Source of the DNA: a virus
Strand: one strand, 5' to 3'
Length of the DNA: 22,210 nt
Virus record (IMG/VR): IMGVR_UViG_3300031629_000094
Location: 1 to 22,210 of that record
Below the pieces are notes generated by a model. That model searched no databases, was not told where the DNA came from, and saw nothing but the letters and a program-made list of their open reading frames with translations. Position numbers and translations under genes: made by a program. Shown one piece after another: positions 1-22,088 of the stretch. Numbering within the stretch: position 1 is the first letter of the stretch; the number at the start of each line of letters is the position of its first letter.

Positions 1-953
1 CGCATCTCAATGATAGCTGCTTCTAATGCATCTGTATCACCCCTATCTACAGGGGCTACCTCTTTGGGTAAGCCACCACTAAGAGTGTAACCATCAGGAG
101 TGCTAAGACCCAGTGCTTCCATTTCATCATGTACTAAGCCTCCATGAGCATAAGCATACTCAGTCCTGTCAGGTTCGCCCCTATATTCTAGGAGATCCTG
201 CGCTGCTCTTATTAATTCTTTAACCCCGGAGTGGCCCACTGAATTTTCATAGCTATCCCCCCCATTCTTAAGATCATTCTGTAATTGGTCGGAAGCAAGG
301 TATGCCTTTGTATCTTGGCTATCCTCTTTACTTACTGGCCCCTCCATTTCTGTATCAAATAGTTCTGCTAGGTATTCCCCTGCATTACCATACATTAATA
401 ATGAGTAGGCTTCTGCACCATATTCTTGCATGAATCTATGGTGGGTATCCCTATCATCCCCAAGAACAGCCTCAAGTTCCTTTAGACCTCTATGGGTATA
501 CTCATGTGTCCATACCCCACTACCCTGTGTCATAGCAGGTGACATAACTATATCATCCCCCTTTACACCTCTGGCATTAATCTGTTCTTGGGAGTACCCA
601 TCACCTAATAGGGTTTCCTCAACGAATTCTGGTTCAGACTCTTTCCAAAAGTATTGGGCTACTCTGTTCTTGTTATCAACTATCTTATCCAGTTCCTGCT
701 TAATCTTCTGATCCGGATAACCAATATTATAGTAATCATCATTGGCATGGTCAGTAGCAGCCTCCGTAGCCATTACCTTACCCTTTGTAGGATCATAGCC
801 TAGTCGGGCAAAGGGGTTAAAATACATAGCAGGATCTAGGTCTGCTCTAAACTCTACATCACCTAAGCTGTCAGAAGGGTTAGTAGAATCACCTAGAGGG
901 ACTGTTCTTTTAGGCAAACCATCTTCGGGTGCTTTCTTTGATAATAAACCCAT
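1..953 (-). CDS. Putative HExxH zinc-metallopeptidase-like virion protein (3' end outside window)
   Basis: The reading frame is open from ATG at 953 to the left window edge, giving at least 317 residues with no stop. The start overlaps the TAA of the upstream 1174-residue gene (TAATG), with an AGGG-type ribosome site inside that gene's end. Residues 150-154 read HEYTH, in the context VWTHEYTHRGLKELE, which matches the zinc-binding and catalytic HExxH motif of zincin peptidases. Glu177 and Glu181, in QEYGAEAY, are candidates for the third zinc ligand. There is no signal peptide or obvious membrane segment. Residues 268-274 read YAHGGLV, a short Gly-Gly motif similar to one in the 1233-residue protein. 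Position at the end of the internal-virion block suggests a particle-associated or maturation protease, but this is inference. HExxH alone can occur by chance, so the enzymatic call is moderate while the gene call is firm. Confidence 0.6.
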   Translation of the reverse strand, partial: MGLLSKKAPEDGLPKRTVPLGDSTNPSDSLGDVEFRADLDPAMYFNPFARLGYDPTKGKVMATEAATDHANDDYYNIGYPDQKIKQELDKIVDNKNRVAQYFWKESEPEFVEETLLGDGYSQEQINARGVKGDDIVMSPAMTQGSGVWTHEYTHRGLKELEAVLGDDRDTHHRFMQEYGAEAYSLLMYGNAGEYLAELFDTEMEGPVSKEDSQDTKAYLASDQLQNDLKNGGDSYENSVGHSGVKELIRAAQDLLEYRGEPDRTEYAYAHGGLVHDEMEALGLSTPDGYTLSGGLPKEVAPVDRGDTDALEAAIIEM

Positions 954-3900
954 TACATTCCCTTCTCTAATGCTACACCTATCTTGGCACCTGCTTTGTA
1001 TGCACCCATCTCAGCTACAGTATGACCATAGTAGTTCTGGAAGTACTCGTTAGCTTTCTCTCTAGCCGCCTGAGGAGTCTTAGCCCACTTACCTTCATCA
1101 AACACACTATAGCTCTTACCTTCTCTGAATGCATCTAGCATGGCTTCACCTTTAGCCATCTCAACTGCCATCTTTCTAATATCTTCAAAGCGATTACCTA
1201 GAACAATACGTTTGTCCTTCTTAGATAAGCTCTTGTATAGGGGTGATGCCATTTGATAACCAATTATAATGTTGGCGTAGTCAGGCATGTGCTTCTTAGC
1301 TATATAGTCAGCTTGCTTATTGCCTGTGTGTGGGGTTAGTTTATAGGTTGGCATACCCAACATCTCTAACTCTTTCTCCATTTCATTCTGCCTAGGCATG
1401 TACTTGATACCAGTAAGCTGATTCATAACAGCACTCTGCCTACGCACTGTACCACCTGTGGTAGGGGATCTGTATTCAGGTAAGTCCTGCTGCCATACAG
1501 GTACTTTAGACTTGAGATGGTTAAGGAAAGTATGAGCAAATACACCACCCATTCCTTCTCCATCTACCATCCGTGTCTCACGTACAATAGCTTCATTGTC
1601 ATCAAAGGCAGAATAAATATCACGGAAGATCTGTGCTGCTGTTAGCGGCCTGCCCATGATAGAGCCTGCCCAGTTACCCATTACCTTACCTAACTTCTCT
1701 CTGGTAACTTCATCACCTGAAGCACCGCCCTCTGCCCCTATCTCAGATAGAGTAATAAATAAATCAGACACACTATCCATAACATTTGTAGGACGTAACT
1801 GTGTACCAGCAATACCCTCAAGTAGCTGGGATGCTATCTCTGTACCATGAAGATCTTCATTTCTCCATTTAACCATAATATCTGCTACAGCAAGGTATGG
1901 AGCCATAGGGAATACAGCACGAATATCTATAGGCTTATCCTTCTCTGAACCACCTATATGGAACCATGCTTTATCTTGGTTGTCATTACGATAGAGTACT
2001 GCGGCATATAATAAGCCACTACCTACTACACCCTTAGCCACCCTTTCTCTTGTATCCTGCATTGCTCTACTACTAACGTCAGCTAGTTCCTGCCCCTCAC
2101 TCTCTAATTTCTTGGCTGCATGATTGAATATATCCTTATCCTTTTTAAGGGGTGCCGCTGCAGCTTTAGCTTTATTTGTTGCTGCTTCTGCAAACTTTTT
2201 ACTTGCCTGACTCCCTACTCTCTTGCTTGAAACGTAAGAACCTGAAGCATTTAGAAAGTTCGCAGGGGAATACTTATACTGGAATGCCATAGCGTCTGCC
2301 ATGAATCGTGCAAAAGGGAATACAAAGGTGGTAGCAAAGGGTATAGACTCAGCCGCATCTACAAACCTCCGCAACACAGTACCTGATTCCGGCATCAATG
2401 CAAAGGTGCTTTCCAGTGCATCATCAGTAGCCTTCTTAAGAACCTGTATAGGTATGGGCTTGTCATTAGCAATGTAGTCATACATATTAAGATCTAACTT
2501 CTTCATCTGCCTGTTAACACTATCAGTGAAAACACCAGAACGTACTACCTGATCCTGCATCATGTTAAAGCCGTTCAACATACGAGTAGTCTTAGTTAGA
2601 GTCTCATTGCCTGTCTCTTGAAGGGATCTGAATAGAGTATGGGTTAGCCTAGTGTTGCTCTTCAACATCATCTTAGCTAATTCCATAGATTCTTTATGTC
2701 CCATGATTGCACTGAAGGCACCAATGGATTCCTGCCAAGTATCTGCCATACCCTGTTTGAAGCCTATTGCTCCCGTCTTACCTGTAATAGCATTGGCTAC
2801 AGCACTGTATGTATGGGCTATAGTACCCTCAACCATCTTAGCAGCAGCACCAAAGGTAACAGAAGCACCCGCAGAGATTACGTTACGTGCAGTGGTAGCA
2901 AGCTGTACTACCATTAATGCCCTAGACTCCCTATCCAGCCTCTTCATGAATCCCATAACAGTAGCTATAGCACCCCTAGTTTCATGGGGCTTACCATATA
3001 TAGCAGCTAACTTTGCCTTAAGGTCAGGGTTATTACCTGCCATCTTATCCATTCTGTCTGCCATAGCCTTGTATTGCTGTAGGGTATTACCACCTGCATT
3101 AGCTGCTAATCGTTGCATCTGTGCAAATTGAACCGTTGTTAGACCTGTCCCACCTATTGCTTGTTCAAGTACATCATCATCTATGCTATCTGCTGCACCA
3201 AGAACACGCATAGTCATGTTAGCAGGTGCTTCCTTCTTACCATTCTGTAGTGTTAGTCTGAAGTACTTATCCGGTAGCTCCTTCATAAGGTTTTCTGCCA
3301 CTGCAATTGAAGCTGCAGTAATGTCTGCTAGAACTTGACCCCCTAGTACAGCATCAGGCATAGATAATGAATTACGTATTCTTTCTGCTGCTTCTTTATC
3401 AAATTTAGGAATAGGTTTGCCAGTAATAGGGTCTATGTCTACCCCATTTGCTTTAGCCTTAGCTTTAGCAGCAGCCTTAGCAGCAGGACTATTATCCGTA
3501 GCAGCAGCTAACCGACCTGCAATCCTCTCTGCATTGGTACTAAGTCCCATAGCCTTTTTGCCAACTATATTAGCAGCACCAATGCCCACACCTAATAAAG
3601 ATGCACCCGCAGTTACACCACCAACTAGAGCAATATCACCCCAGTCTTTCTCTGCTAATTGTCCTATCTCAATCTTCAATTCTTGTCGCTGAGATTCCAC
3701 CATAGCACCACCCAGCCCTTCTATTGAGGTAGTTGCAGTGATACGACCAAGGTTTCCCTTTAGCATGTGTCCCATAACAGCCCTACTGAGCACTGAGGCA
3801 CCTGCCTTACGTGCTGCCATTGCTGCTATAGCTGACGCACCACCTGTAGGTATAGTCATTGCAAGACCTACTAGGGCTAAGGGGTCAGTTACTACAGTAC

Positions 3901-4477
3901 CTATAGAATCTATAACACCAGAGATGGTACTACCACCTCCCTCAGTGGTAAAGCTAGGCATCTGGTCATATATGCCATACATAATTGCATACCGATCTTT
4001 CTTACTCTTACTAAGATCTTTAATGTAATCTGTTTCTTGTAGTACATCTACAGAGTTTTCAGTTGCATAACGCATATGAGTCATGTAGCGTTCTAGTAGC
4101 TCCCTGTTAGTCTCTCCCTCTTGGCGGGTGCCTTCCTCACCTAGTCTATCTTCTAAGACAGATTCAGCTAACTGAGCAATACCATCATGCTTAGAGAGGT
4201 TACCTATACTATAGTCTTCACCTAACTCAGTTAGCTGTACGGGAGACTCAAAGGATGAAGCCTGATATGAATCCTCCCATGAATTCTCCTGAGGATCTTC
4301 GCTTGCATAGGGCTGTGATAAGTCAAAGTCAAGCGCATCAGATTCATACTCATCTTCATAAGGGGTGGATAGATCAAAGCCGACTGACCCAGCCTCCTCT
4401 TCTGATGTGGTACTGTTGAACCCTAGCTCTTCCTCTTCATCCACGTAGGGTTCGGATAAGTCAAAGTTAAGTGTCAT
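953..4477 (-). CDS. Large internal virion protein (1174 aa) with three FDLSxPY motifs
   Basis: ATG at 4477 follows directly on the TAA of the upstream gene, with GAGGT about 7 bases before it. The acidic N-terminus carries three copies of FDLSxPY (residues 5-11, 34-40, 51-57). A helical, charged part follows (about 90-175). Next come glycine/alanine-rich hydrophobic stretches (about 186-230 and 281-311), an Ala-Lys run (331-344), and long helical regions with further hydrophobic segments around ARNVISAGASVTFGAA. The plan (very large, soluble ends, membrane-compatible middle, last big gene of the virion block) fits ejection proteins such as T7 gp16, which enter the host envelope with the DNA. 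Its N-terminal part resembles large virion proteins I know from marine podoviruses, but I cannot name a family with certainty. No lytic transglycosylase motif was recognised. The virion role is inferred from size, composition and neighbours. Confidence 0.75.
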   Translation of the reverse strand: MTLNFDLSEPYVDEEEELGFNSTTSEEEAGSVGFDLSTPYEDEYESDALDFDLSQPYASEDPQENSWEDSYQASSFESPVQLTELGEDYSIGNLSKHDGIAQLAESVLEDRLGEEGTRQEGETNRELLERYMTHMRYATENSVDVLQETDYIKDLSKSKKDRYAIMYGIYDQMPSFTTEGGGSTISGVIDSIGTVVTDPLALVGLAMTIPTGGASAIAAMAARKAGASVLSRAVMGHMLKGNLGRITATTSIEGLGGAMVESQRQELKIEIGQLAEKDWGDIALVGGVTAGASLLGVGIGAANIVGKKAMGLSTNAERIAGRLAAATDNSPAAKAAAKAKAKANGVDIDPITGKPIPKFDKEAAERIRNSLSMPDAVLGGQVLADITAASIAVAENLMKELPDKYFRLTLQNGKKEAPANMTMRVLGAADSIDDDVLEQAIGGTGLTTVQFAQMQRLAANAGGNTLQQYKAMADRMDKMAGNNPDLKAKLAAIYGKPHETRGAIATVMGFMKRLDRESRALMVVQLATTARNVISAGASVTFGAAAKMVEGTIAHTYSAVANAITGKTGAIGFKQGMADTWQESIGAFSAIMGHKESMELAKMMLKSNTRLTHTLFRSLQETGNETLTKTTRMLNGFNMMQDQVVRSGVFTDSVNRQMKKLDLNMYDYIANDKPIPIQVLKKATDDALESTFALMPESGTVLRRFVDAAESIPFATTFVFPFARFMADAMAFQYKYSPANFLNASGSYVSSKRVGSQASKKFAEAATNKAKAAAAPLKKDKDIFNHAAKKLESEGQELADVSSRAMQDTRERVAKGVVGSGLLYAAVLYRNDNQDKAWFHIGGSEKDKPIDIRAVFPMAPYLAVADIMVKWRNEDLHGTEIASQLLEGIAGTQLRPTNVMDSVSDLFITLSEIGAEGGASGDEVTREKLGKVMGNWAGSIMGRPLTAAQIFRDIYSAFDDNEAIVRETRMVDGEGMGGVFAHTFLNHLKSKVPVWQQDLPEYRSPTTGGTVRRQSAVMNQLTGIKYMPRQNEMEKELEMLGMPTYKLTPHTGNKQADYIAKKHMPDYANIIIGYQMASPLYKSLSKKDKRIVLGNRFEDIRKMAVEMAKGEAMLDAFREGKSYSVFDEGKWAKTPQAAREKANEYFQNYYGHTVAEMGAYKAGAKIGVALEKGM

Positions 4478-6253
4478 TTACAATACCTCTAGCTTAGCGT
4501 ACAAAGTTTCCTTCAGTGAAGTAACCTTATCGGTCTTACGTATCTTGCTGGGGAAAGCATTAAGTTCTTTTATTAGATCCTTTATACTTTCCCTTGTCCA
4601 ATCTTTACGGCTGGTTACTATAGATGATATAGATGCAATACGGTCACTTGTAACAGTATTATCTATATCTCTCTGTGCGTTACCAAGCATACTTAATCCA
4701 GTAGCTATAGCGGAAGAGACAATAGGAGAATGTCCTAAACTAGAACCTCCCATCTTAGTAATCTTATCAATTGCACCCTGTATTTCTTCTGCAGTACCTT
4801 CATCTACTATCCTAGTTATTGCGGATACCATCTTACTAGAGTCAGCAGCAGTAGGTGCCCCCTCAAGCTTATTAAAGTAGGCTAAGTTAGCATCAGAAGT
4901 TATTAGCTTGGCTTTGAAGTCCTTTTCTACTTGTACCTTACTATCCGATTCACCTAACTCTTCCATGTTAGCTATGGTTTTATCCTGCTGCGATATTAGT
5001 TCAGGGTTAGTGCCTAGTTTACCCGCTGCCTTAACAACTCCACTACCATTACCTGTCTTCTTATCTCCCCACCACTCTGCAAACTGAGGGTTCTCACCTT
5101 TCGCTTTGTTAGTTAGTGCTCTCTGTTTCATACCCTTAAGTTCACGGCCTGTAAATAGTCCTTCTTGTTTTTCTCCCTGACTAGTTACATGTTTACCCCA
5201 GTAGAATACAGCATCCTTTGTTTTTGAAATATCCTTAGGTGAAAACCCACCATATAGTCCGGGTAATGCTATATCAAGAGCTTTCATTTTTCCTGAACTA
5301 ATAGTAGGATTCTCATTAGAAGACATAACCGCATTACTAATTATTACCCTAACGGCTTCCTTGTATTCCTTACTTTTTCTAAAGGCTGCTTCAAAACCCG
5401 GAAGACCCTGTAGCATAGAAGCATCAGCACCTGCGGTAGACTTTTGCTCTTCCCCATTTGTAGAGGCAGGTTGGAACTGACCAGTAATAGCCCAAGTGTT
5501 ACGCAGAGTCAGTAGTTCAGCAGTTATATTTTTAGAGAGAGATCGTGCTGCATCTTCTAAAGCACCCTCTACACCTAATTGAGATTGAGTTACAGTATTA
5601 GCATCTACTATAGCTTGCTGTGCTGTTCTAAAGTCTGTGGTAACATAGTTAATACTATGCTTTATCTCTCGTACTTTCTTATAGTTGTAAGAGTATAGTG
5701 ACTGCGCCTTTGCCATAGATATACCAGTGATAGCAGCAATCTGCTCACCCTGCTTCTTTGCAATAGAGGCTTCTGCCTCAACTGTCATATGCTCACTCTG
5801 ACCATAGAAGGAAGTGTAGTCTACAGGAGACTCCTTAGTGGCACCCCGTACACGCTCCACCAAAGTTAGGTTAGGATCTAAGGGTTCTGGCTCTTCCAAT
5901 ATGGTTATCATATCAGATATGTTCCATTCTTTACCTACCATTTCAGGGTGGCCCGGAGCTTCAAATAATTCATCTCGCTTAGCTTGTGATAGACGATATA
6001 TAATTTCCATCTGATCCTTGGTAAGATCTGGATCCCTACCCATGAAAGTAGACCGTATATCCTGTAGTCTATTGTTTTCTGTGTTTCTATCTTTCAGAAT
6101 CTTAGAGGCACCTTCTTGTATCATAGCATTGCTATTCCACATCTTGGCACTAAAGGCAGAGCGTTCAGCCTTCTGTTCTTTTAGCTTATCACCATAGTAA
6201 TCTGAACCTGCTTTGGTTGCACCTGAGATCACATCACTGAATTTAAATCCCAT
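4478..6253 (-). CDS. Probable internal virion protein (591 aa)
   Basis: The frame could begin at GTG 6262, but the AGAGAGG ribosome site would then abut the start codon. The ATG at 6253 lies about 8 bases downstream of that site and is preferred, giving a protein beginning MGFKFSDVISGATKAG. It overlaps the end of the 174-residue gene by 11 bases and stops immediately before the next gene's ATG, so translation is probably coupled. The sequence is mostly helix-forming, rich in Lys, Glu, Ala and Ser, with no signal peptide or convincing membrane segment and few cysteines. I recognise no enzyme motif. Its place between the 1233- and 1174-residue proteins, and its length, match the middle member of an internal core set as in T7 (gp14, gp15, gp16). 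That role is inferred from gene order only. A structural scaffold role cannot be excluded. Confidence 0.65.
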   Translation of the reverse strand: MGFKFSDVISGATKAGSDYYGDKLKEQKAERSAFSAKMWNSNAMIQEGASKILKDRNTENNRLQDIRSTFMGRDPDLTKDQMEIIYRLSQAKRDELFEAPGHPEMVGKEWNISDMITILEEPEPLDPNLTLVERVRGATKESPVDYTSFYGQSEHMTVEAEASIAKKQGEQIAAITGISMAKAQSLYSYNYKKVREIKHSINYVTTDFRTAQQAIVDANTVTQSQLGVEGALEDAARSLSKNITAELLTLRNTWAITGQFQPASTNGEEQKSTAGADASMLQGLPGFEAAFRKSKEYKEAVRVIISNAVMSSNENPTISSGKMKALDIALPGLYGGFSPKDISKTKDAVFYWGKHVTSQGEKQEGLFTGRELKGMKQRALTNKAKGENPQFAEWWGDKKTGNGSGVVKAAGKLGTNPELISQQDKTIANMEELGESDSKVQVEKDFKAKLITSDANLAYFNKLEGAPTAADSSKMVSAITRIVDEGTAEEIQGAIDKITKMGGSSLGHSPIVSSAIATGLSMLGNAQRDIDNTVTSDRIASISSIVTSRKDWTRESIKDLIKELNAFPSKIRKTDKVTSLKETLYAKLEVL

Positions 6254-6767
6254 CTTCTTCACCTCTCTTAGCCATTAAACCCATAGATGGTTCCACAGGA
6301 GGTTCCATAGGAGATGCTTCTACAATCTCTTCTTCAAGTGACATAGTCTCTTCTTCTACATCATCAAAGTCTTTTAGTGCTAGTGCAACGGCACTCATAC
6401 TAGGTTCAACATTCTTCTTAGTCTCATTACCTATCTTGTACTTAACATCAGAAGCTTCTGCTACGTTGATAAGCATTTCAATAAGTACTGGAGCAGCAAG
6501 CAAGCCTGTATCAAGGGTGTGATCCCCATCCATTACACCTGCTTTAATAAGTAGGTTAACAATAGGGATAATAGGTATGCCGGATTCTATCTGGTTAAGG
6601 ATTTCAGTTACCATACCCTTATCTTCAAACACAGGCATGTAGCTTTCAATGACTTCATTCACAGTGTTTAGCTTAGGTGGCTTCTCCCAAGGCTTTGAAC
6701 CTAACTCACCTGCTAGGGACTGTCCGGGTATGGGTGCATCAAATATGGGTTCCTTACTTGGATTCAT
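6243..6767 (-). CDS. Conserved-looking phage protein with PGQSLA/PWEKPP motif (174 aa)
   Basis: ATG at 6767 has AAGG five bases upstream and overlaps the 3' end of the 61-residue gene by 14 bases. Near the N-terminus, residues about 13-32 contain PGQSLAGELGSKPWEKPPK. This proline/tryptophan motif followed by a 'T-V-x-E' helix resembles small conserved proteins of unknown function in marine phages; that is from memory, not a search. The middle (about 60-105) is a hydrophobic helical domain (GIPIIPIVNLLIKAGVMDG, then VLIEMLINVAEAS). The C-terminal third is strongly acidic (EEETMSLEEEIVEAS) and probably disordered. There is no signal peptide. It sits inside the internal-virion block in a chain of overlapping genes, so a minor virion or assembly role is likely. 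Function is unknown. Confidence 0.7.
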   Translation of the reverse strand: MNPSKEPIFDAPIPGQSLAGELGSKPWEKPPKLNTVNEVIESYMPVFEDKGMVTEILNQIESGIPIIPIVNLLIKAGVMDGDHTLDTGLLAAPVLIEMLINVAEASDVKYKIGNETKKNVEPSMSAVALALKDFDDVEEETMSLEEEIVEASPMEPPVEPSMGLMAKRGEEDGI

Positions 6768-6939
6768 TGTTACCTTCCCTCATCTTTCTAAGCTGCTTAA
6801 TGTAGTGGATAATATCTGTATCCTCGTCTGAATTCTCTCGCTTGGGGATTAGACCATTGCTTTTTGCGGAAGTATCAGTAGGCGCTTTACGTATCTGTGC
6901 GTCTATCTTGTTATACATTTTAATTATATGTTGTGACAT
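6754..6939 (-). CDS. Small charged protein of unknown function (61 aa)
   Basis: ATG at 6939 has an AAGGGA ribosome site 7 bases upstream, in the 21-base gap after the 1233-residue gene, and the end overlaps the next gene by 14 bases. The product is rich in Lys, Asp and Glu, has no cysteine, and shows two short helical parts: an N-terminal MSQHIIKMYNKIDAQIRK and a C-terminal DIIHYIKQLRKMREG, separated by a polar linker. No family is recognised. The good ribosome site and coupling to flanking genes support a real gene; a small assembly or scaffolding helper is possible but unproven. Confidence 0.6.
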   Translation of the reverse strand: MSQHIIKMYNKIDAQIRKAPTDTSAKSNGLIPKRENSDEDTDIIHYIKQLRKMREGNNESK

Positions 6940-6960: not shown

Positions 6961-9900
6961 TTAATCGTCTGCATCTTGACCATTCTTATAATCAACATAT
7001 TGCATACCAAGCTTAGTAATATTCTCCCACATAGTACTACTACTCGCAGATGATTTGGATGCTATTAGTGCCTCACCTGCTATGGTAGAAGTGGCGATTG
7101 CGTTAAACCGATCAGCTTCATTCTCTTTGATCTGGTAACCCCAATCCATTTCATCCCTATGTTCCTGCCATAAGTTATCATAGGCCGTGTTACTAATATC
7201 CAAAGCTGCCTTAGCATTGATCTCATTAGCACGGTTAGTGGCTGCGGTGTCTGCTGTAGCTACAGTTCTACGCCATTGAGCATTTGACTGCTCTACAACA
7301 AGACTGTTAGTAGCATTAAACTGATCTCTCTGATTCTTTATCTCAGTGTTAAACTTCTCAGTAGCATTGATCTCGCCTGCATTGAACTTGTCCTGTGCAT
7401 TCTTCTGTGAAGAGTTGAACTGGTTCATAGTAGATTTCATATTGTCATAGAACTGATCCACTTGGTTAGCGGAGGAGGCATTGAACTGCTTAGTAGCATT
7501 CTCTGCTGCCTTATCAGACAAGATAGAACTAATACGCTCTTGTGCTGCAAACATAGTAGTCTGTTGAGCATTACTTAGGTTAGCCATATCAACTTCAAGG
7601 AAGGCTTGGGCATTCTGTACTTCAGCCTGCTGCCTGTTGTTGAGGTTAGCCATATCCATGTTAGCACTGTTAGCAACATTAGCTAATTGTGCAGCCTGCT
7701 TATTAGATAGGTTTGCAAGATCCATAGTCTGTACTAAGTTAGAGTTCTGAATAGCTTTATTCTGCTCTGCAGTAAAGTTCATGTTAGCTATCTCAGAAAC
7801 ACGGGACGCATTCAATACATTAGTCTGCTGTCTGTTAGATAACTCTTGTCCTTTAATGGAAGCATCAATCTGTGCATTAGCTAGTGCAGTCTGTTGCTTG
7901 TTTGACAAGTTGGTAACTTCCATCTGCATAGCATTGGTCGTGTTAAACAACTTAGTTTGTTGCTCACTTGTTAGCTCTAGCTCTCGCTCTGATAACTGAG
8001 AAGACACATTGAATAGTGCAGTCTGTTGTTCATTGCTAAGCACCTGAGACTTCATAGCAGCAGATGCTATTGCATCTTGCATGAATGCAGCTTGTTGGCT
8101 TGTAGCATCAAACTGTGCAGACTCAAAGCTCTTAGTAGACTCTAACACTGCCATCTGCTGTTCGTTAGATACATCCTGACCTTTAAGTGAAGCACGAACC
8201 TGTAAGTTAGCAACAGAAGTTGCTTGCTCTGTAGATAGGTTAGTAAGATCTATAGATAGATTCTCAGCAGACTTTGCAAGGTTAGACTGTTGTGCATTAT
8301 TCAAGTTAATGTTATTGACTTCTGCATACCGTGCTGCGTTAGCTAGTGATGTTTGAGTCTCAGCATTTAGGTTCATACCTTTGGCTGCTGCACGTACTGC
8401 CTGATTAGAAATCACAACAGCTTGTAGGTTAGATAGACTTTCAGCCTGTAGTGCAAAGGCGTTAGTGCTATTCTGTAAAGCAGACTGTTGCTTATTAGAT
8501 AAGTTATTTAATGCCAAGTTCTGTGCGGCAGCAGCATTAGCTAACGAAGTTTGCTGTCTGTTACTCAGATTAGCCATATCCATACTTAGAAATGCTTGAG
8601 CATCATTCTGTGCAATAGGCATTGCAGATTCCATAGCAGCCTGCACAATAGCAGCACTAGCCATAGAAGAAGCACCAATACCCCTAGCAGCCATAACAGC
8701 ATTAGCATTACGCATAGCACCTGCAGCCCAAGCTGGAGTACCATCGTTGAACTGATCCATTAAGCTTGCCATCTGGCCTTGCATAGTAGCTGCAGCACTA
8801 ACGGCACCCTGTCGGTCTGTAGCAAGCTCCTGAGAGAAGTTACCCTGCTGAGCTATCATAGTAGCTTCAGTGTTCAAAGCATTCATAGTGGCAGCTACAG
8901 CGGCTACAGGTTCATCTAACTGTAAGGCAGCTACATCAACTAACTCTTGATTGCTAACTGCACGATTCTGTGCAACTACACCTGAAGTAGCATCAGACTT
9001 AACTATGTCAGCCGCAGGTACAGTACCTGCCTTAGCAGCATCCATGACAGTGTAGTCACCCAACTGAGCAGACTGAGTGGTCTTTAAGTTGTATGCGTCT
9101 GCTGCCTGTGCCTCTGGTGTAGCTGAGTCAAGGGAAGTTGTAGATGCGGCAAATTCTTTATTTGAAAGTTGATTAGCTGAAGATGCAATCTGACCCGTAG
9201 CAGCATTTACTTCCTGCCCCGGACTATAGGTTAATGCAGTGGTATCACCTACTTGTCCTGCTGTGCTTGTAGCCCCATCAGCCCGTTCAGTGATAGCACC
9301 CTGCTGTGCTTGCACTGTATCTGTTACTGTACCTACTTCAGAAACTAAAGCATCAGTCACACCTTTCACACCAGACTCTGCAGTGTTAGTGGTTATGTTG
9401 TCATGAGTCTTAGCATCAGGTGTATCAGCTTTAGTGTAAGCTGCCTGTGTAGTTGAAGCTGTTGGTGAAGTATCTAACTGACCTGCTGTTTTATTAATAA
9501 GTTGATTAGGATTTACTTGAGTAGCTGTGGCTACTGTCTTTGTACCCGTTGGAAGTGTAGGGTTAAGATGTTGACCAATAGATATATCACCTAAGGTACT
9601 GTCCTTAGTAAAGGGAATACCTTCTGGTGGCCCTGTTACTGGAGGTGGAGTAGTAACTAATGAAGGATCAGGTCTATAAGTAACACCTTTAATCTGGTCA
9701 ACAGGATCTACAAACTTCTGCTGTCCTGTAGCATCAAAGCCCACACCTTCAGTAGAGTCGTTGATCTGTCCACGGATACTATCTAAGCCCATACCACCAG
9801 CCAGAAGGTTAGAGTAGTATTCAACACCAGCAGCATCACCTGCCCTGCCTGTTTGTCCCTGATAAATAGATTGGATAGCTGCTACGTCTGCTGCAGTGTT

Positions 9901-10662
9901 ATCACCTGTGCGGCCTAGCTTATCTACAGCTTGATCTGTAGTAGCATAGTCTGGATTTACTTGGTCATAGGCATAGTTATTACCATCAGGATTCATCCAC
10001 ATAGGCCGAGCGTGTTCAGTCCGTACCCGTTGGTCTTCTGCCACATATCGCTGCTGCTTTGTACTTGCCCATTGACCCGCTTCAGTACTACCATCTAACT
10101 CAAGTCCAATAGTAGCAAGAGCCTCTTCAGAAGTCTTGCCAGATGCCTTTAACTCTGCCACCTTTCCTGCATAGAACTCCTGACCCTTCTTACCAGCGTG
10201 TCTACCTAACTTATTCTTAAATAGATTCTGTATAGATTCATTATCTTTAGATACTTGGTATTGCTTACCTTCATCACTGTAAGCTAGGTCAGCTTTAATA
10301 TCTTCAAGACTCTTAGTACCGTTAGCTAGTTGGTTCTTGTAGAAATTATAGCCTGCTTTGTTTGGCTGTCTACCTGTAGCGATAAGGTATGCCGCCTCTA
10401 TAGGATCCATTGGAGATTCAGGGATTCTAACCCTTCCTTCATTCCAGTAGTCTACATCACCACCACCTTCATAACCAGAAACCACTCCACCACTAGCATA
10501 CCGCTTAGTAGTAGCATTGATTAATGCATTATACTTATTCATTGCAGGAGGGTTAGCTTGAAGATAACCACCGAAGGAAGGTAAGTCACCAGTATGCCCC
10601 AGCTTTGAAGCAATACGCTTCATCTGATCTTGACTGTAACCTTTAAACTGTTGTTGAGGCAT
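6961..10662 (-). CDS. Giant internal virion protein with DUF4214-like N-terminus and hendecad helical stalk (1233 aa)
   Basis: ATG at 10662 has AAGAGAG about 8 bases upstream, at the end of a 156-base gap with a promoter candidate. Residues 55-69 hold YASGGVVSGYEGGGD. Three degenerate DUF4214-like repeats follow (about 86-134, 142-196, 260-305; e.g. GRQPNKAGYNFYKNQL). A low-complexity Thr/Ala/Asp-rich stretch covers about 310-600. Residues 677-1050 are seventeen 22-residue units without insertions, the clearest reading LSNxQQTxLxNA, and 1051-1149 are nine 11-residue units, most ending in QFN or a close variant. A 22/11-residue period is the hendecad pattern of right-handed coiled coils or long amphipathic helices. 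About 80 C-terminal residues follow. The large size, first place in a block of virion-type genes, and helical stalk suggest a DNA-ejection core or conduit protein comparable in role, not in sequence, to T7 gp15/gp16. A tail-fiber-like stalk is the alternative. Confidence 0.75.
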   Translation of the reverse strand: MPQQQFKGYSQDQMKRIASKLGHTGDLPSFGGYLQANPPAMNKYNALINATTKRYASGGVVSGYEGGGDVDYWNEGRVRIPESPMDPIEAAYLIATGRQPNKAGYNFYKNQLANGTKSLEDIKADLAYSDEGKQYQVSKDNESIQNLFKNKLGRHAGKKGQEFYAGKVAELKASGKTSEEALATIGLELDGSTEAGQWASTKQQRYVAEDQRVRTEHARPMWMNPDGNNYAYDQVNPDYATTDQAVDKLGRTGDNTAADVAAIQSIYQGQTGRAGDAAGVEYYSNLLAGGMGLDSIRGQINDSTEGVGFDATGQQKFVDPVDQIKGVTYRPDPSLVTTPPPVTGPPEGIPFTKDSTLGDISIGQHLNPTLPTGTKTVATATQVNPNQLINKTAGQLDTSPTASTTQAAYTKADTPDAKTHDNITTNTAESGVKGVTDALVSEVGTVTDTVQAQQGAITERADGATSTAGQVGDTTALTYSPGQEVNAATGQIASSANQLSNKEFAASTTSLDSATPEAQAADAYNLKTTQSAQLGDYTVMDAAKAGTVPAADIVKSDATSGVVAQNRAVSNQELVDVAALQLDEPVAAVAATMNALNTEATMIAQQGNFSQELATDRQGAVSAAATMQGQMASLMDQFNDGTPAWAAGAMRNANAVMAARGIGASSMASAAIVQAAMESAMPIAQNDAQAFLSMDMANLSNRQQTSLANAAAAQNLALNNLSNKQQSALQNSTNAFALQAESLSNLQAVVISNQAVRAAAKGMNLNAETQTSLANAARYAEVNNINLNNAQQSNLAKSAENLSIDLTNLSTEQATSVANLQVRASLKGQDVSNEQQMAVLESTKSFESAQFDATSQQAAFMQDAIASAAMKSQVLSNEQQTALFNVSSQLSERELELTSEQQTKLFNTTNAMQMEVTNLSNKQQTALANAQIDASIKGQELSNRQQTNVLNASRVSEIANMNFTAEQNKAIQNSNLVQTMDLANLSNKQAAQLANVANSANMDMANLNNRQQAEVQNAQAFLEVDMANLSNAQQTTMFAAQERISSILSDKAAENATKQFNASSANQVDQFYDNMKSTMNQFNSSQKNAQDKFNAGEINATEKFNTEIKNQRDQFNATNSLVVEQSNAQWRRTVATADTAATNRANEINAKAALDISNTAYDNLWQEHRDEMDWGYQIKENEADRFNAIATSTIAGEALIASKSSASSSTMWENITKLGMQYVDYKNGQDADD
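7216..7512 (-). repeat. Nine 11-residue (33-bp) coding repeats following the 22-residue array
   Basis: Residues 1051-1149 continue the register of the preceding array with 11-residue units. Most early units end in a Q/K-F-N/Y pattern, for example KAAENATKQFN, SSQKNAQDKFN and TEIKNQRDQFN; the last units are weaker. Halving of the unit from 22 to 11 without loss of phase suggests one continuous helical structure. Confidence 0.85.
7513..8634 (-). repeat. Seventeen in-register 22-residue (66-bp) coding repeats
   Basis: Residues 677-1050 of the 1233-residue protein divide exactly into 22-residue units; sixteen start at residue 699 and one weaker unit precedes them. Conserved positions are Leu1, Ser/Asn2-3, Gln5-Gln6, a hydrophobic residue at 9 and Ala/Asn at 11-12. 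Hydrophobic residues favour positions 1, 9, 12, 16 and 20, the 3-4-4 spacing of hendecads. The DNA copies are divergent, so this is visible mainly in the protein. Confidence 0.9.
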
Positions 10663-10818: not shown

Positions 10819-11253
10819 CTATCTTCTAGCTACTATAGATTGACCAAAGTACATCCCTACCACTGACATGATTGCATGGGGTAACCAAACTGGTGTTACC
10901 ATACCCTGTAATGAAACAAATTCAGTCACCGTATTCTTAAAGTCAAAGAACAAGATACTGAATCCTGATGTAACATCTACGGGTACTACTGTACTGAATC
11001 CTAATAAAGGTGCTAGTAGTATGAACATAGCCATACTCATGAAGGAGATAACCAAGAAGCGCCTGATCCATTGAGCATTGGGGTTCTGGTGTGCACGAGC
11101 AGCATCCACACTCTTCTCAGAGGCATCCATACGGGCTAACAACTGTTTCTGTTGCTCTGCCTTATCTGCCTGTGCTTGTGCCCACATCTTCATGCCAGCC
11201 CCACCTAAGGTGCTACCCATCATTGTGACAGCTTCCATTGGTAATCCAAACAT
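10819..11253 (-). CDS. Holin-like membrane protein (144 aa)
   Basis: ATG at 11253 has a perfect AGGAGG five bases upstream, overlapping the TAG of the preceding gene. Residues 3-22 are mildly hydrophobic (GLPMEAVTMMGSTLGGAGMK). A charged helical part follows (about 26-62), then a membrane segment (about 66-88, FLVISFMSMAMFILLAPLLG), a loop, and a second membrane segment (about 123-140), ending in ARR. This organisation resembles the three-segment holin family known from gene transfer agents and from small membrane proteins of marine phages. It is the last gene of the envelope cassette. Holin function is inferred from topology and from the adjoining small membrane proteins; no endolysin is seen in the window to confirm a lysis locus. 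Confidence 0.55.
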   Translation of the reverse strand: MFGLPMEAVTMMGSTLGGAGMKMWAQAQADKAEQQKQLLARMDASEKSVDAARAHQNPNAQWIRRFLVISFMSMAMFILLAPLLGFSTVVPVDVTSGFSILFFDFKNTVTEFVSLQGMVTPVWLPHAIMSVVGMYFGQSIVARR

Positions 11254-15690: not shown

Positions 15691-16488
15691 CTATAAAACG
15701 GTTATTGTGACAAAACCGCCACCAACATTAGTTCGGTTAATGTCAGATGGGTTTGAAGCTGTATTGACAATGAAACTGGTTCCACCCTGCCTAGAGCCTC
15801 CACCAACATAACCACCGCCTCCTGCCCACTGGCCGTAGTAACTTGCACTCATACCGCCACCTCCAGCACCCCACCCACCAGTGGGGCCGTTCCAGTAGTG
15901 ATCAGTACCTGAGGTGTTCGCACCATCCTTAAAGTTTTTGCCTCGGAAGTTATTACCACCCCCGCCATAACCTGAATAGCCGCCACCTCCTCCTGCATAT
16001 CCCGACCCAGAACCACCAGCTCCAGAAGCGTTTAATGAACCTGTGATGTACGGCTTCCCCGCCCTATCTACAGTACCTCCCGTAGCTCCGGAACCTCCCC
16101 CACAAATGATCACATTAATGTTTTGGGATGTAGAAACCGCAGTGCCGCCACCTGCACCTGAGTTGCCGCCGAGTTGCCCACATGTAATATATAAGTACGA
16201 ACCCTCCACAAGATCAAAATCGGCTTGGACTGTGGCCCCACCATAGGGTGTCGCATTAGCAGAGCCAGCGCCTGCGGCTTGGATACGATACGTTGCTGTT
16301 TTTGGAACCATCCACCTCTGTCTAACACCGACACCCGATATATAAGAGGCTACAACGCCACTATATGCGGAACTTACTGTTGAAGTGGTGGGAGCAGTAT
16401 GACCGACAGCTAGGGCAGTGAACGTATGTGAGGTAAATTCATATAAACCCGGATCTTCACTATTACCTCTTAGTTTATTTTCTATCAT
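15691..16488 (-). CDS. Glycine-rich adhesin with ALK/LTK-type glycine-rich domain (265 aa)
   Basis: The frame is open to 16524, but the ATG at 16488 overlaps the previous TAA (TAATG) and is the likely start. Residues 17-75 follow the pattern of the ALK/LTK glycine-rich domain: YEFTSHTFTALAVGHTAPTT, then AYSG, then QRWMVPKTATYRIQAAGAGS (compare 'W-x-V-P-x-[TA]-G-x-Y-x-I-x-A-x-G-A'). Residues about 105-235 are dominated by Gly runs (GYAGGGGGYSGYGGGG and others) with aromatic residues, which may form polyglycine-II helices as in the tip adhesin of phage S16 (gp38). The C-terminus (GGGFVTITVL) is a closing strand. Coming after two fiber genes and before a chaperone, it is probably the receptor-binding tip. 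By eye its GC is above its neighbours', a possible sign of exchange. Confidence 0.65.
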   Translation of the reverse strand: MIENKLRGNSEDPGLYEFTSHTFTALAVGHTAPTTSTVSSAYSGVVASYISGVGVRQRWMVPKTATYRIQAAGAGSANATPYGGATVQADFDLVEGSYLYITCGQLGGNSGAGGGTAVSTSQNINVIICGGGSGATGGTVDRAGKPYITGSLNASGAGGSGSGYAGGGGGYSGYGGGGNNFRGKNFKDGANTSGTDHYWNGPTGGWGAGGGGMSASYYGQWAGGGGYVGGGSRQGGTSFIVNTASNPSDINRTNVGGGFVTITVL

Positions 16489-17870
16489 TAGCTCATTACC
16501 TGTCCCGCAGCAAAACCATACCAAGTTGTACCACCGTCCGTTGTTAGGAAAGAAAACACATCAACACCTGCTTCTAGGTCAGGTGCATCACCACCAGCCC
16601 AATCCACGGAGCTAGGCCAAGTGATAACGGGCGTAGAACTTAGGGTTGCTATTAAAGTAAATGCCCCGGCTTTACCTGAAGCAGGTGGATTAGAGAAGGT
16701 CAGAGTCTGTGACCCCGCAATAGCTTTAGTCTGTACATTGCCTAATGAAAGGTCTACGTCATTAGCAGCCATTGCTTGTACAGTTTCTGAGTAATCCTTG
16801 ATTTCAGGACGCTGGATGATGTTGTCAGCGTGGTTAACCGTACCTGACATAGTACCACCCGCTTTAGGTAGGGCAGCGCCAGCCGTAGTCGTAGTAGAAC
16901 TTAAGATACCATCTCTAGTAGCAATATCTACACCATCAAAGGTACTGTTGGTTGTAATTGCACCAGTCATTGCCCCACCTGTCTTAGGTAAAGCAGCGTC
17001 TGCTGTTACACCGTCTGCTGCTACATCACGACCATCAAAAGTAGAGTTTGTAGTTATTGCACCAGTCATAGCACCGCCTGCTTTAGGTAGTGCTGCTCCT
17101 GCGGTAGTAGTGGTGGAAGTTAAGATCCCGTCACGAGTAGCAATGTCTACACCGTCAAACGTACTGTTGGTAGTAATAGCTCCTGTCATAGCTCCACCAG
17201 CTTTAGGTAAAGCAGCATCAGCAGTTACACCATCGGCTGCTACATCACGACCATCAATGGTACTGTTGGTAGTAACTGCACCTGTAAAGGCACCACCAGC
17301 AAGAGGCATCTTAGTGCCAATAGACGTAGCGGTAGTTGTTGCATAGTTGGCATCATCACCTAAGGCTGCTGCTAGTTCATTCAACGTGTTCAAAGTAGCT
17401 GGAGCCGAGTCTGCTAGGGCTGCAATTGCTGCATCAGCGTAGGCTGTCGTTGCTACTTTAGTTGAGTTGTCTGCAGCAGATTGAGTAGTAGTAGTTGGAC
17501 TACCACCAAGAGCAATACTTGTTGCAGATTCAACAGCAGTTTTAATCTCTGCATCAGACTGATCTGCAGTAGCAGAAGCTTCAATAGCATTTAGCTTAGT
17601 GTGATCTGCATCTGTGAACACATTAGAGTCAGTAGCCGCTTCAACAGCAGCACGAATCTCCGCATCAGTTTGATCTGCAGTAGCAGAAGCTTCAATAGCA
17701 TCTAGCTTAGTTTTATCTACACTAGAGGGCATTGCAAAACCACCTGCAGTAGAACCATCATGGACTACTAAAGTGTCTTTTGTTGTGTCAACAGTAACTT
17801 CACGTAAGGCACCTGTAAAAGATGAATGCTCGGAAGTCGTGCCACCACGAAGTTGTAGTAATTTACTCAT
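16488..17870 (-). CDS. Tail fiber protein with alternating repeats (460 aa)
   Basis: ATG at 17870 has GGAGGT eight bases upstream, lying inside the end of the previous gene. The N-terminus (LQLRGGTTSEHSSFTGALRE, then VVHDGSTAGG) is the short beta module found at the start of many phage fibers and tropism proteins. Residues 57-118 contain a two-copy helical repeat (LDAIEASATADQTDAEIRAA). About 158-180 (TLNELAAALGDDANYAT) is shared with the 891-residue fiber. Residues 186-344 are alternating units of two types, each with AGGAMTG. The C-terminal knob (about 365-460) has TFSNPPASGKAGAFTLIATL and FLTTDGGTTWYGF, a common fiber ending. It likely forms a trimeric fiber segment distal to the 891-residue protein, with the next gene as tip. 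Host-range role is inferred. Confidence 0.8.
   Translation of the reverse strand: MSKLLQLRGGTTSEHSSFTGALREVTVDTTKDTLVVHDGSTAGGFAMPSSVDKTKLDAIEASATADQTDAEIRAAVEAATDSNVFTDADHTKLNAIEASATADQSDAEIKTAVESATSIALGGSPTTTTQSAADNSTKVATTAYADAAIAALADSAPATLNTLNELAAALGDDANYATTTATSIGTKMPLAGGAFTGAVTTNSTIDGRDVAADGVTADAALPKAGGAMTGAITTNSTFDGVDIATRDGILTSTTTTAGAALPKAGGAMTGAITTNSTFDGRDVAADGVTADAALPKTGGAMTGAITTNSTFDGVDIATRDGILSSTTTTAGAALPKAGGTMSGTVNHADNIIQRPEIKDYSETVQAMAANDVDLSLGNVQTKAIAGSQTLTFSNPPASGKAGAFTLIATLSSTPVITWPSSVDWAGGDAPDLEAGVDVFSFLTTDGGTTWYGFAAGQVMS
16839..17273 (-). repeat. Alternating protein repeats with divergent DNA in the 460-aa fiber
   Basis: Residues 200-344 alternate two unit types: one with STFDGRDVAADGVTADAALPK and one with STFDGVDIATRDGIL followed by a Thr run and AGAALPK. 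Protein copies are almost identical, but their DNA differs at many third codon positions (compare 16861-16950 with 17081-17170). Confidence 0.85.
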
Positions 17871-20549: not shown

Positions 20550-22088
20550 TTATCTTAGATCTCCAGTGCCATAAGTTAACACTATGCCCTGTATGCTGTG
20601 ACTAGCATCAGTGCTATTAGTTACGTATTTAAAGGATATGGACTTACCAGAACCTGCTATGTTAGTTGTCCGTATCGGTGAGGGGTTACCACTGTAGATG
20701 GCAGTACTATCGTAGGTAGCTTCATTAAAGTATGCGGCTGCACCTACGGTATTCATTGTATAGTTAGTTGGGTTCATTATAGTAGTATCTTCGTAATCAT
20801 ACACTACAGATAATATAATTTCGTTATCCCCCTCAGATCGGAGGTAAGTACTAACTTTATAAAAGATCTTACGTAGTTCAGGATTTTCCATATATAGGTA
20901 AGGAGTTTGATATACACTGAAGATGTCTAGCCCATTAAAGGAGTTACCAATCTCTTGTCTATGTACTTTACCATCGGATGTACCATGTATTACATACTCA
21001 TACTGACCTAAGTAGCCACTAGCAGCACATGTAGCCTCTAGTCCTAATAGTTGTCCAAACTCAAAGGAGAACCCTTCTTGTTGCTTTCGGATACCTCCGA
21101 TAATACCCTGTGCTTCTGAGGCAGCAAAGAAGATACGGAACTGCGACTTCTGACGAATAACTACTGAAGATAGGCCATCTAAATCTATGTTCATTGAAAT
21201 GTCTGTGAATAGAGATTGAATATCTTTTGATATAGTCTCTAGTTCTACATCACCAATTCTGCTTGTACCTGATATAGGCCGCATACCATCCTGACTAAGG
21301 AACATTAAGTCCCCACCAATCTCCATGATACTGTCCGAAGCAATACAACCTAGATCGTGTGTAACACCTGTCAATACAAAGTCAGAAGTACTAGTACCTT
21401 TCAAAGACTTAATGTTGTTAGTTCCAAAGATATATAGTACATCTCGGAAAGGTTTGATAGCTACAATAGGGAAGCCTACATTAATTACGCCAGCACCATT
21501 GCCTGTAGCAAAGTCAGTTTCAGCTAATGGAGCACTGAAGAATAGTTTTGTAGGATGTGCAGGATCACCTGCAAGGAACATATGATTAGCATAATCCACA
21601 GCATACTTTGGATCCGTAGGAGCATTCGCATGAGTAAGCTGAGTGTATGTAGTACCATCATAAGTAGCTGCAGGATTAATACCATCTGTAAGTATAGTCT
21701 TTGGTGTAGTGAAGTTAAAGTTACTAAAACGTACCTTACCCACCCCTACCATTGTAGGTGAACCAGCAGTAGTAGCGGCTACCCATGCAGAGGTTGCTGT
21801 ATTCCAATAGTGAAGATAGTTATATCCAGAAGAAGGTTTTCTACAGGCTAGGATGCCATTGTTGATACCGTTGACTACATTAACACCTAGCGTAGATCCT
21901 GTTCCCGGAAGTGTACCATATGAATTATCAAAACCATTAATACGTCTATAACCACCTGTAATAGCTGGCTCATAGTTAACTAGTAGAATAGCACTACCCG
22001 GAGCTTGTTCACCCTGTGCAAGAACATCACGACTTGTATCTAAGCCGCCCCTGCAGAATACTTTGTTTACTGATAGTTGATCTGCCAT
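20550..22088 (-). CDS. Tail nozzle/hub-like protein (512 aa)
   Basis: ATG at 22088 lies four bases after the stop of the preceding gene; no strong ribosome site is seen, so coupling is likely. The N-terminal part (FCRGGLDTSRDVLAQGEQAP, then NYEPAITGGYRRINGFDNSY) has the 'E-P-x-x-x-G-G-Y-R-R-I-x-G-F' pattern seen in tail hub, nozzle or stabilization proteins of podoviruses, many of which are beta-propellers. The rest is beta-rich with repeated Trp/Tyr/Gly strands (NHMFLAGDPAHPTKLFFSAP, FRDVLYIFGTNNIKSLKG, GGDLMFLSQDGMRP), consistent with propeller blades. It should form the end of the short tail through which DNA leaves, with fibers attached. Gene order nozzle-then-fiber supports this. The exact equivalent (T7 gp12 or P22 gp10) cannot be decided from sequence reading. 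Confidence 0.6.
   Translation of the reverse strand: MADQLSVNKVFCRGGLDTSRDVLAQGEQAPGSAILLVNYEPAITGGYRRINGFDNSYGTLPGTGSTLGVNVVNGINNGILACRKPSSGYNYLHYWNTATSAWVAATTAGSPTMVGVGKVRFSNFNFTTPKTILTDGINPAATYDGTTYTQLTHANAPTDPKYAVDYANHMFLAGDPAHPTKLFFSAPLAETDFATGNGAGVINVGFPIVAIKPFRDVLYIFGTNNIKSLKGTSTSDFVLTGVTHDLGCIASDSIMEIGGDLMFLSQDGMRPISGTSRIGDVELETISKDIQSLFTDISMNIDLDGLSSVVIRQKSQFRIFFAASEAQGIIGGIRKQQEGFSFEFGQLLGLEATCAASGYLGQYEYVIHGTSDGKVHRQEIGNSFNGLDIFSVYQTPYLYMENPELRKIFYKVSTYLRSEGDNEIILSVVYDYEDTTIMNPTNYTMNTVGAAAYFNEATYDSTAIYSGNPSPIRTTNIAGSGKSISFKYVTNSTDASHSIQGIVLTYGTGDLR

Follow-up and report, generated by a model that had tools for sequence, protein, structure and literature searches.

A hendecad-phased repeat array in a putative ejection-cassette protein of HMO-2011-type marine podophages

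The locus and the layout of the repeat protein

We analysed a 22,210-nt virus fragment (IMGVR_UViG_3300031629_000094), the whole of which is called the window below. On its minus strand the gene order runs from a head-closure-like protein (20550–22088) through fibre genes to a repeat protein of 1233 amino acids (P0001, 6961–10662), followed by four genes down to position 953. The protein at the upstream end of this structural module resembles head-closure or stopper proteins (PHROG 578, head closure Hc3, E 4.5e-6), and its strongest match was phrog_5107, labelled amidase. Separate genes upstream of the repeat gene encode the fibres proper (Mtd_N and phrog tail-fibre proteins), and one of these fibres (16488–17870, minus strand) carries an Mtd_N domain together with internal ALPKAGGAMTGAITTNSTFDG repeats. 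Just upstream of the repeat gene, a minus-strand frame at 10819–11253 encodes a protein of 144 residues that by eye resembles a holin, having two or three apparent membrane segments.

The repeat gene opens a cassette of five genes that closes the late block, a position conserved in its relatives. It is followed on the same strand by gene 2 (6754–6939, 61 amino acids), gene 3 (6243–6767, 174 amino acids), whose APIPGQSL..PWE.PP family was found in every isolate relative aligned, gene 4 (4478–6262, 594 amino acids), which the alignment showed to be very divergent, and gene 5 (953–4477, 1174 amino acids), a position held in relatives by LPD38 or giant polyvalent proteins; searches of gene 5 of the window detected no LPD38. 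In isolates the order is repeat protein, small gene(s), and then proteins of approximately 160–210 (160–220 across the relatives), 300–930 and 820–1400 amino acids. With its homologue of HMO-2011 gp25 and the conserved cassette that follows it, the window has the structural module of an HMO-2011-type podophage. The repeat gene sits upstream of two larger ejection-type genes, an order comparable to that of T7 and P22; genes 4 and 5 gave no profile match to T7 gp15/16 or P22 gp20/16. Directly after the cassette, a minus-strand frame cut by the contig end (3–953) includes the sequence WTHEYTHRGL, which may be an HExxH metalloprotease motif.

The repeat protein begins with the motif FKGY..QMKRIA..LGH.GDL..F..YL..NP (residues 1–68, 10459–10662), which the alignment showed to be common to several relatives, and continues with DUF4214 (residues 88–133, 10264–10401; Pfam PF13946, E 2.7e-14), a Thr/Ala/Pro-rich linker that varies among relatives (residues 330–620, 8803–9675) and a conserved neck, ARGLGxSS...A.PIAxxDA (residues 625–688, 8599–8790). 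The array itself consists of sixteen 22-residue units with the consensus LSNxQQxxLxNAxxxxxxMxxxN (residues 699–1050, 7513–8568), followed by 11-residue units of the form xxxxNxxxQFN (residues 1051–1149, 7216–7512), with no insertion or deletion between units; 27% of its residues are Asn or Gln. A conserved C-terminal segment starting WRRTVATADTAATNRANE (residues 1130–1233, 6964–7275) ends the protein. The S74 chaperone domain that comes after this segment in some relatives, such as CRP-3 (Pfam) and CRP-212 (PHROG match), is absent from the window protein. The first-pass annotation had reported seventeen 22-residue units and nine 11-residue units at 7216–8634, coordinates that map exactly to residues 677–1149 of this minus-strand frame. 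The array is real, but the count needs revision: residues 677–698 (MESAMPIAQNDAQAFLSMDMAN) are the end of the conserved neck and not a repeat unit, and the 11-residue units are clean for seven copies (until residue ~1127), then degenerate and weaker up to residue 1149.

Pfam, PHROGs and NCBIfam searches of the window protein returned nothing beyond DUF4214 (Pfam), and a PDB sequence search gave no match. Foldseek comparison of the predicted model with the PDB returned only designed helical repeat proteins at a TM score of ~0.15, which is not a meaningful match, and comparison with BFVD returned the protein's own relatives. At the DNA level no tandem repeat of unit length is left within the window and no recent duplication was seen, indicating an old array that has been conserved at the protein level.

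A relative of the repeat protein was found in 27 phage records, all at less than 60% identity, comprising HMO-2011, Roseobacter CRP phages, Pelagibacter HTVC phages, one uncultured podophage, Rhizobium and Sinorhizobium phages, Vibrio CHOED, Aeromonas MQM1 and 1233 and Pseudoalteromonas Slicky01; IMG/VR added 80 loci. The annotated relatives are all hypothetical proteins apart from the record names 'huntingtin' and 'nuclear receptor coactivator', which we judged to be spurious automatic labels. Among them, gp25 of Puniceispirillum phage HMO-2011 (ADW08438, phage1322_25; 56.6% identity over residues 914–1194) and gp35 of Roseobacter phage CRP-1 (47% identity), both annotated as hypothetical, are homologous to the window protein and share its gene order and array type, but have an array of 228 residues rather than 448 and a different N-terminus. 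In Pelagibacter phage HTVC115P, a gene annotated as a toxin-activating lysine-acyltransferase (L014:10078–10527) lies directly after the repeat gene.

Cassette partners and the role of the repeat protein

The neck also occurs in repeat-less proteins of other podophages, namely a 238-residue protein of Vibrio phage 1.232.O (hhalign probability 86%) and a 519-residue protein of Pseudoalteromonas phage Y3 (tblastn), and is present on a Desulfobacula contig (L110). In both Y3 and 1.232.O (L111, L112) the array-less neck protein heads a cassette ending in a giant polyvalent protein, the last genes of the pair encoding a methylase-type protein of ~3,290 amino acids and a DdrB-like ParB protein of ~3,420 amino acids, and in HTVC033P an LPD38 protein (gene 52) is the last of the cassette. 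Both DdrB-ParB and LPD38 are listed as phage-type polyvalent domains, carried by proteins that are predicted to enter the host with the DNA (PMC5512222). An annotated acetyltransferase gene lies immediately after the neck gene of Y3, with a similar-looking gene on the Desulfobacula contig.

The S74 tails found in some relatives were compared with those of other phages. For the CRP-3 group, once sister phages and a single Octadecabacter protein labelled tail spike/chaperone are set aside, the best matches were DNA-ejection or injection proteins, from phages 7-11 and pSal-SNUABM-01. The Octadecabacter virus has a related S74, which in turn matches ejection or injection proteins of PVA1, H6/1 and others and few fibres, and AH02 gp11, an S74-ended protein encoded before a P22-like injection gene, matches the P22 gp7 family (E 1e-14). 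The P22 gp7/phiEco32-type DNA ejection proteins (phrog_598, phrog_4287), of which some end in S74, are likewise encoded in the late gene block and have a comparable Gly/Ala-rich C-terminal segment, and their optional S74 is matched in the relatives of the window protein; however, they have no repeat array and no detectable homology to it outside S74. Profile comparison of the repeat protein with P22 gp7 and the T7 gp14 core gave no match outside S74, and PHROGs gave none.

Taken together, the cassette position, the polyvalent proteins in related cassettes and the S74 matches make an internal, ejection-type role plausible, though indirectly. The part of the first-pass annotation that saw an internal virion or ejection protein thereby gains indirect support, though none from homology to P22 or T7 ejection proteins. 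The best reading is that the window encodes an ejection-cassette protein of an HMO-2011-type podophage, a marine short-tailed virus, and that this is an internal virion protein whose cassette products would be expelled ahead of or with the DNA; we give this a probability of about 55%, on the evidence of sequence and gene order.

The main competitor, unlikely in our judgement, is an external fibre, a trimeric tail or head appendage. S74 domains are known mainly from tail fibres, many tail-fibre PHROGs match AH02 gp11, and the close S74 match in Octadecabacter carries a tail-spike label. The variable N-termini with DUF4214 and the location of the repeat gene in the same block as fibre genes would also suit a fibre, and phage phi29 offers a precedent, though not a demonstrated homologue, in its head fibre gp8.5, an external trimer with a repeating helix-turn-helix stem (PMC7602432). 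Against this, ejection proteins account for most of the S74 matches that the CRP-3 group has outside its sister phages, the window protein has no S74 at all, the fibres proper are encoded separately upstream, and the neck recurs at the head of polyvalent-protein cassettes.

HMO-2011-type phages are reported to rank with the most abundant phages of the sea (PMC9038755). The literature searched contained no account of how they carry their DNA across the envelope and no virion proteomics for any relative. The repeat protein, probably an ejection protein, now gives a concrete candidate for DNA delivery with natural length variants of 13 to 70 hendecads, and since several isolates can be grown in the laboratory, any role of array length in delivery is directly testable, as is any refolding of ejection proteins through pre-set turns.

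Array length across the relatives

In 70 relatives, array length was measured between the PIA motif in the neck and the conserved W that follows the array. It ranged approximately five-fold, from 151 to 778 residues (13 to 70 hendecads), which in a straight helix would span 23–117 nm across related phages. In all but one relative the length was 8 mod 11, the lone exception (L029) carrying a 2-residue deletion. Fourteen of the 15 distinct lengths followed this rule, for which the chance would be ~4e-13 if lengths were independent, a figure that relatedness raises. The length changes repeat across the tree (19 over all length classes). Thus an 11-residue periodicity without insertions or deletions, as first claimed for the window protein in the form of a single register, holds family-wide as far as length is concerned.

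Most lengths also fall on 228+110k. Among lengths of at least 206 residues that are 8 mod 22, 57 arrays lie at 228+110k and four are 22 residues shorter, and random distinct lengths in 22-residue steps would concentrate equally strongly with P ~0.0005. Long copies contain a 110-residue (5×22) super-repeat of five unit types, a feature absent from the first-pass annotation. Sequence identity within the long array of L028 was 0.55 at a lag of 110 compared with 0.28–0.34 at lags of 22–88, and in the window protein 0.32 at a lag of 110 compared with 0.24–0.28 at shorter lags. In the L028 array the five distinct 22-residue types return in fixed order. Arrays of more than 316 residues came from metagenome assemblies only. 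A single origin of the long arrays was not supported, the classes of 448, 558 and 338 residues each requiring at least two changes on the tree.

Unequal recombination between 110-residue blocks would be the sober explanation of the 110-residue steps, with no structural need behind them, but it does not account for the strict 11-residue phase. It is unusual for ordinary solenoid repeats to hold turn length exactly constant through hundreds of units; this suggests that the phase of the helices is important in some state of the protein.

Turns, hydrophobic stripe and a possible change of shape

The columns of the 22-residue unit were compiled from non-redundant arrays of at least 228 residues, anchored on the C-terminal W so that no choice of motif was involved. 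The pattern is a hydrophobic position (89%), three variable positions, Asn (66%) and a hydrophobic position (96%, mostly Leu or Phe), then the turn site, S/T/N/D at 96% against a background of 29% (Ala 1%), followed by Asn (69%), one variable position and Gln (87%). This turn signature, N-L-S-N, recurs every 22 residues, and by the established rules of helix capping it is a Schellman C-cap, with hydrophobic residues at C3 and C'' and Asn at C', that leads into an N-cap box. An AlphaFold monomer of the window protein (25 sequences) broke the helix at all 16 unit starts but at only one of 15 mid-unit positions and restarted it at unit position 4 in 16/16 units, with a pLDDT of about 60–88 across the array, mostly 70–88. 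A second monomer, of a short homologue (L030, 40 sequences), was a poor model (pLDDT 55.7, pTM 0.19) with breaks at four of seven unit starts and none elsewhere in the 22-residue part. Both models are monomers from shallow alignments, so that the prediction favours turns without being conclusive.

The hydrophobic pattern was analysed in the same array. The 3-4-4 hydrophobic spacing that had been claimed throughout fits the 11-residue units (moment 0.122 at a period of 11/3) but poorly the 22-residue units (0.039), and the hydrophobic stripe flips by ~176° at the boundary between them (355° compared with 179°). No continuous 3-4-4 stripe therefore runs across the whole array; 'one register' is true of its length and not of its stripe, which lies on opposite sides in the two parts.

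The first-pass annotation had proposed a straight helix of ~70 nm able to cross a Gram-negative envelope. The capping signature, the 16/16 predicted breaks, the flipped stripe and the arrays of 151–778 residues together do not support such a stalk, and the five-fold length variation in particular argues against an envelope-sized rod. We consider it unlikely that the array is one continuous right-handed hendecad coiled coil, a 70-nm rod or conduit resembling a much enlarged phiX174 H tube with an Asn/Gln lining. The near-perfect 11-residue quantization would be expected of it, as would the good 3-4-4 moment of the 11-residue part, where AlphaFold drew long helices of low confidence, as it did for much of the short homologue; the Asn and Gln share is also close to the 26% of the phiX174 H tube, a structure that begins with three hendecad repeats. 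Against it stand the capping signature every 22 residues and the 89% hydrophobic site of the 22-residue units, which on a continuous helix would lie on the other side. Thus the array is probably a row of short helices rather than one straight rod, although tube or scaffold use may follow a rearrangement. A DNA-packing scaffold or internal core retained in the head shares the cassette and composition evidence of ejection but is improbable, as the cassette mates in relatives are of the injected type and array length did not track the lengths of genes 4 and 5 (Spearman −0.12 and −0.02 respectively). The same lack of correlation led us to reject the array as a ruler matched to either gene.

For the ejection reading, a most likely course of events can be sketched. 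The protein would be packed inside the head, where its array probably folds as short helices ended and restarted at N-L-S-N, and would be expelled early into the host, building a path for the DNA with the other cassette proteins. Since no unit departs from hendecad phase, the helices would stay in phase and the array could run as a continuous helix once assembled outside the capsid. A conduit that changes shape in this way, its turned helices straightening on ejection, is a tentative proposal to which we assign a low likelihood; if it is true, the number of 110-residue modules per gene would set the conduit's reach. A comparable system is the phiX174 H protein, which combines hendecads with an Asn/Gln-rich helix as here and forms a 17-nm DNA-translocating tube from three hendecads followed by heptads (PMC7354561). 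The present arrays differ in having up to 70 hendecads with turn signatures, and a PDB sequence search found no homology to H. By this analogy, the Asn/Gln share would be compatible with a DNA-facing surface.
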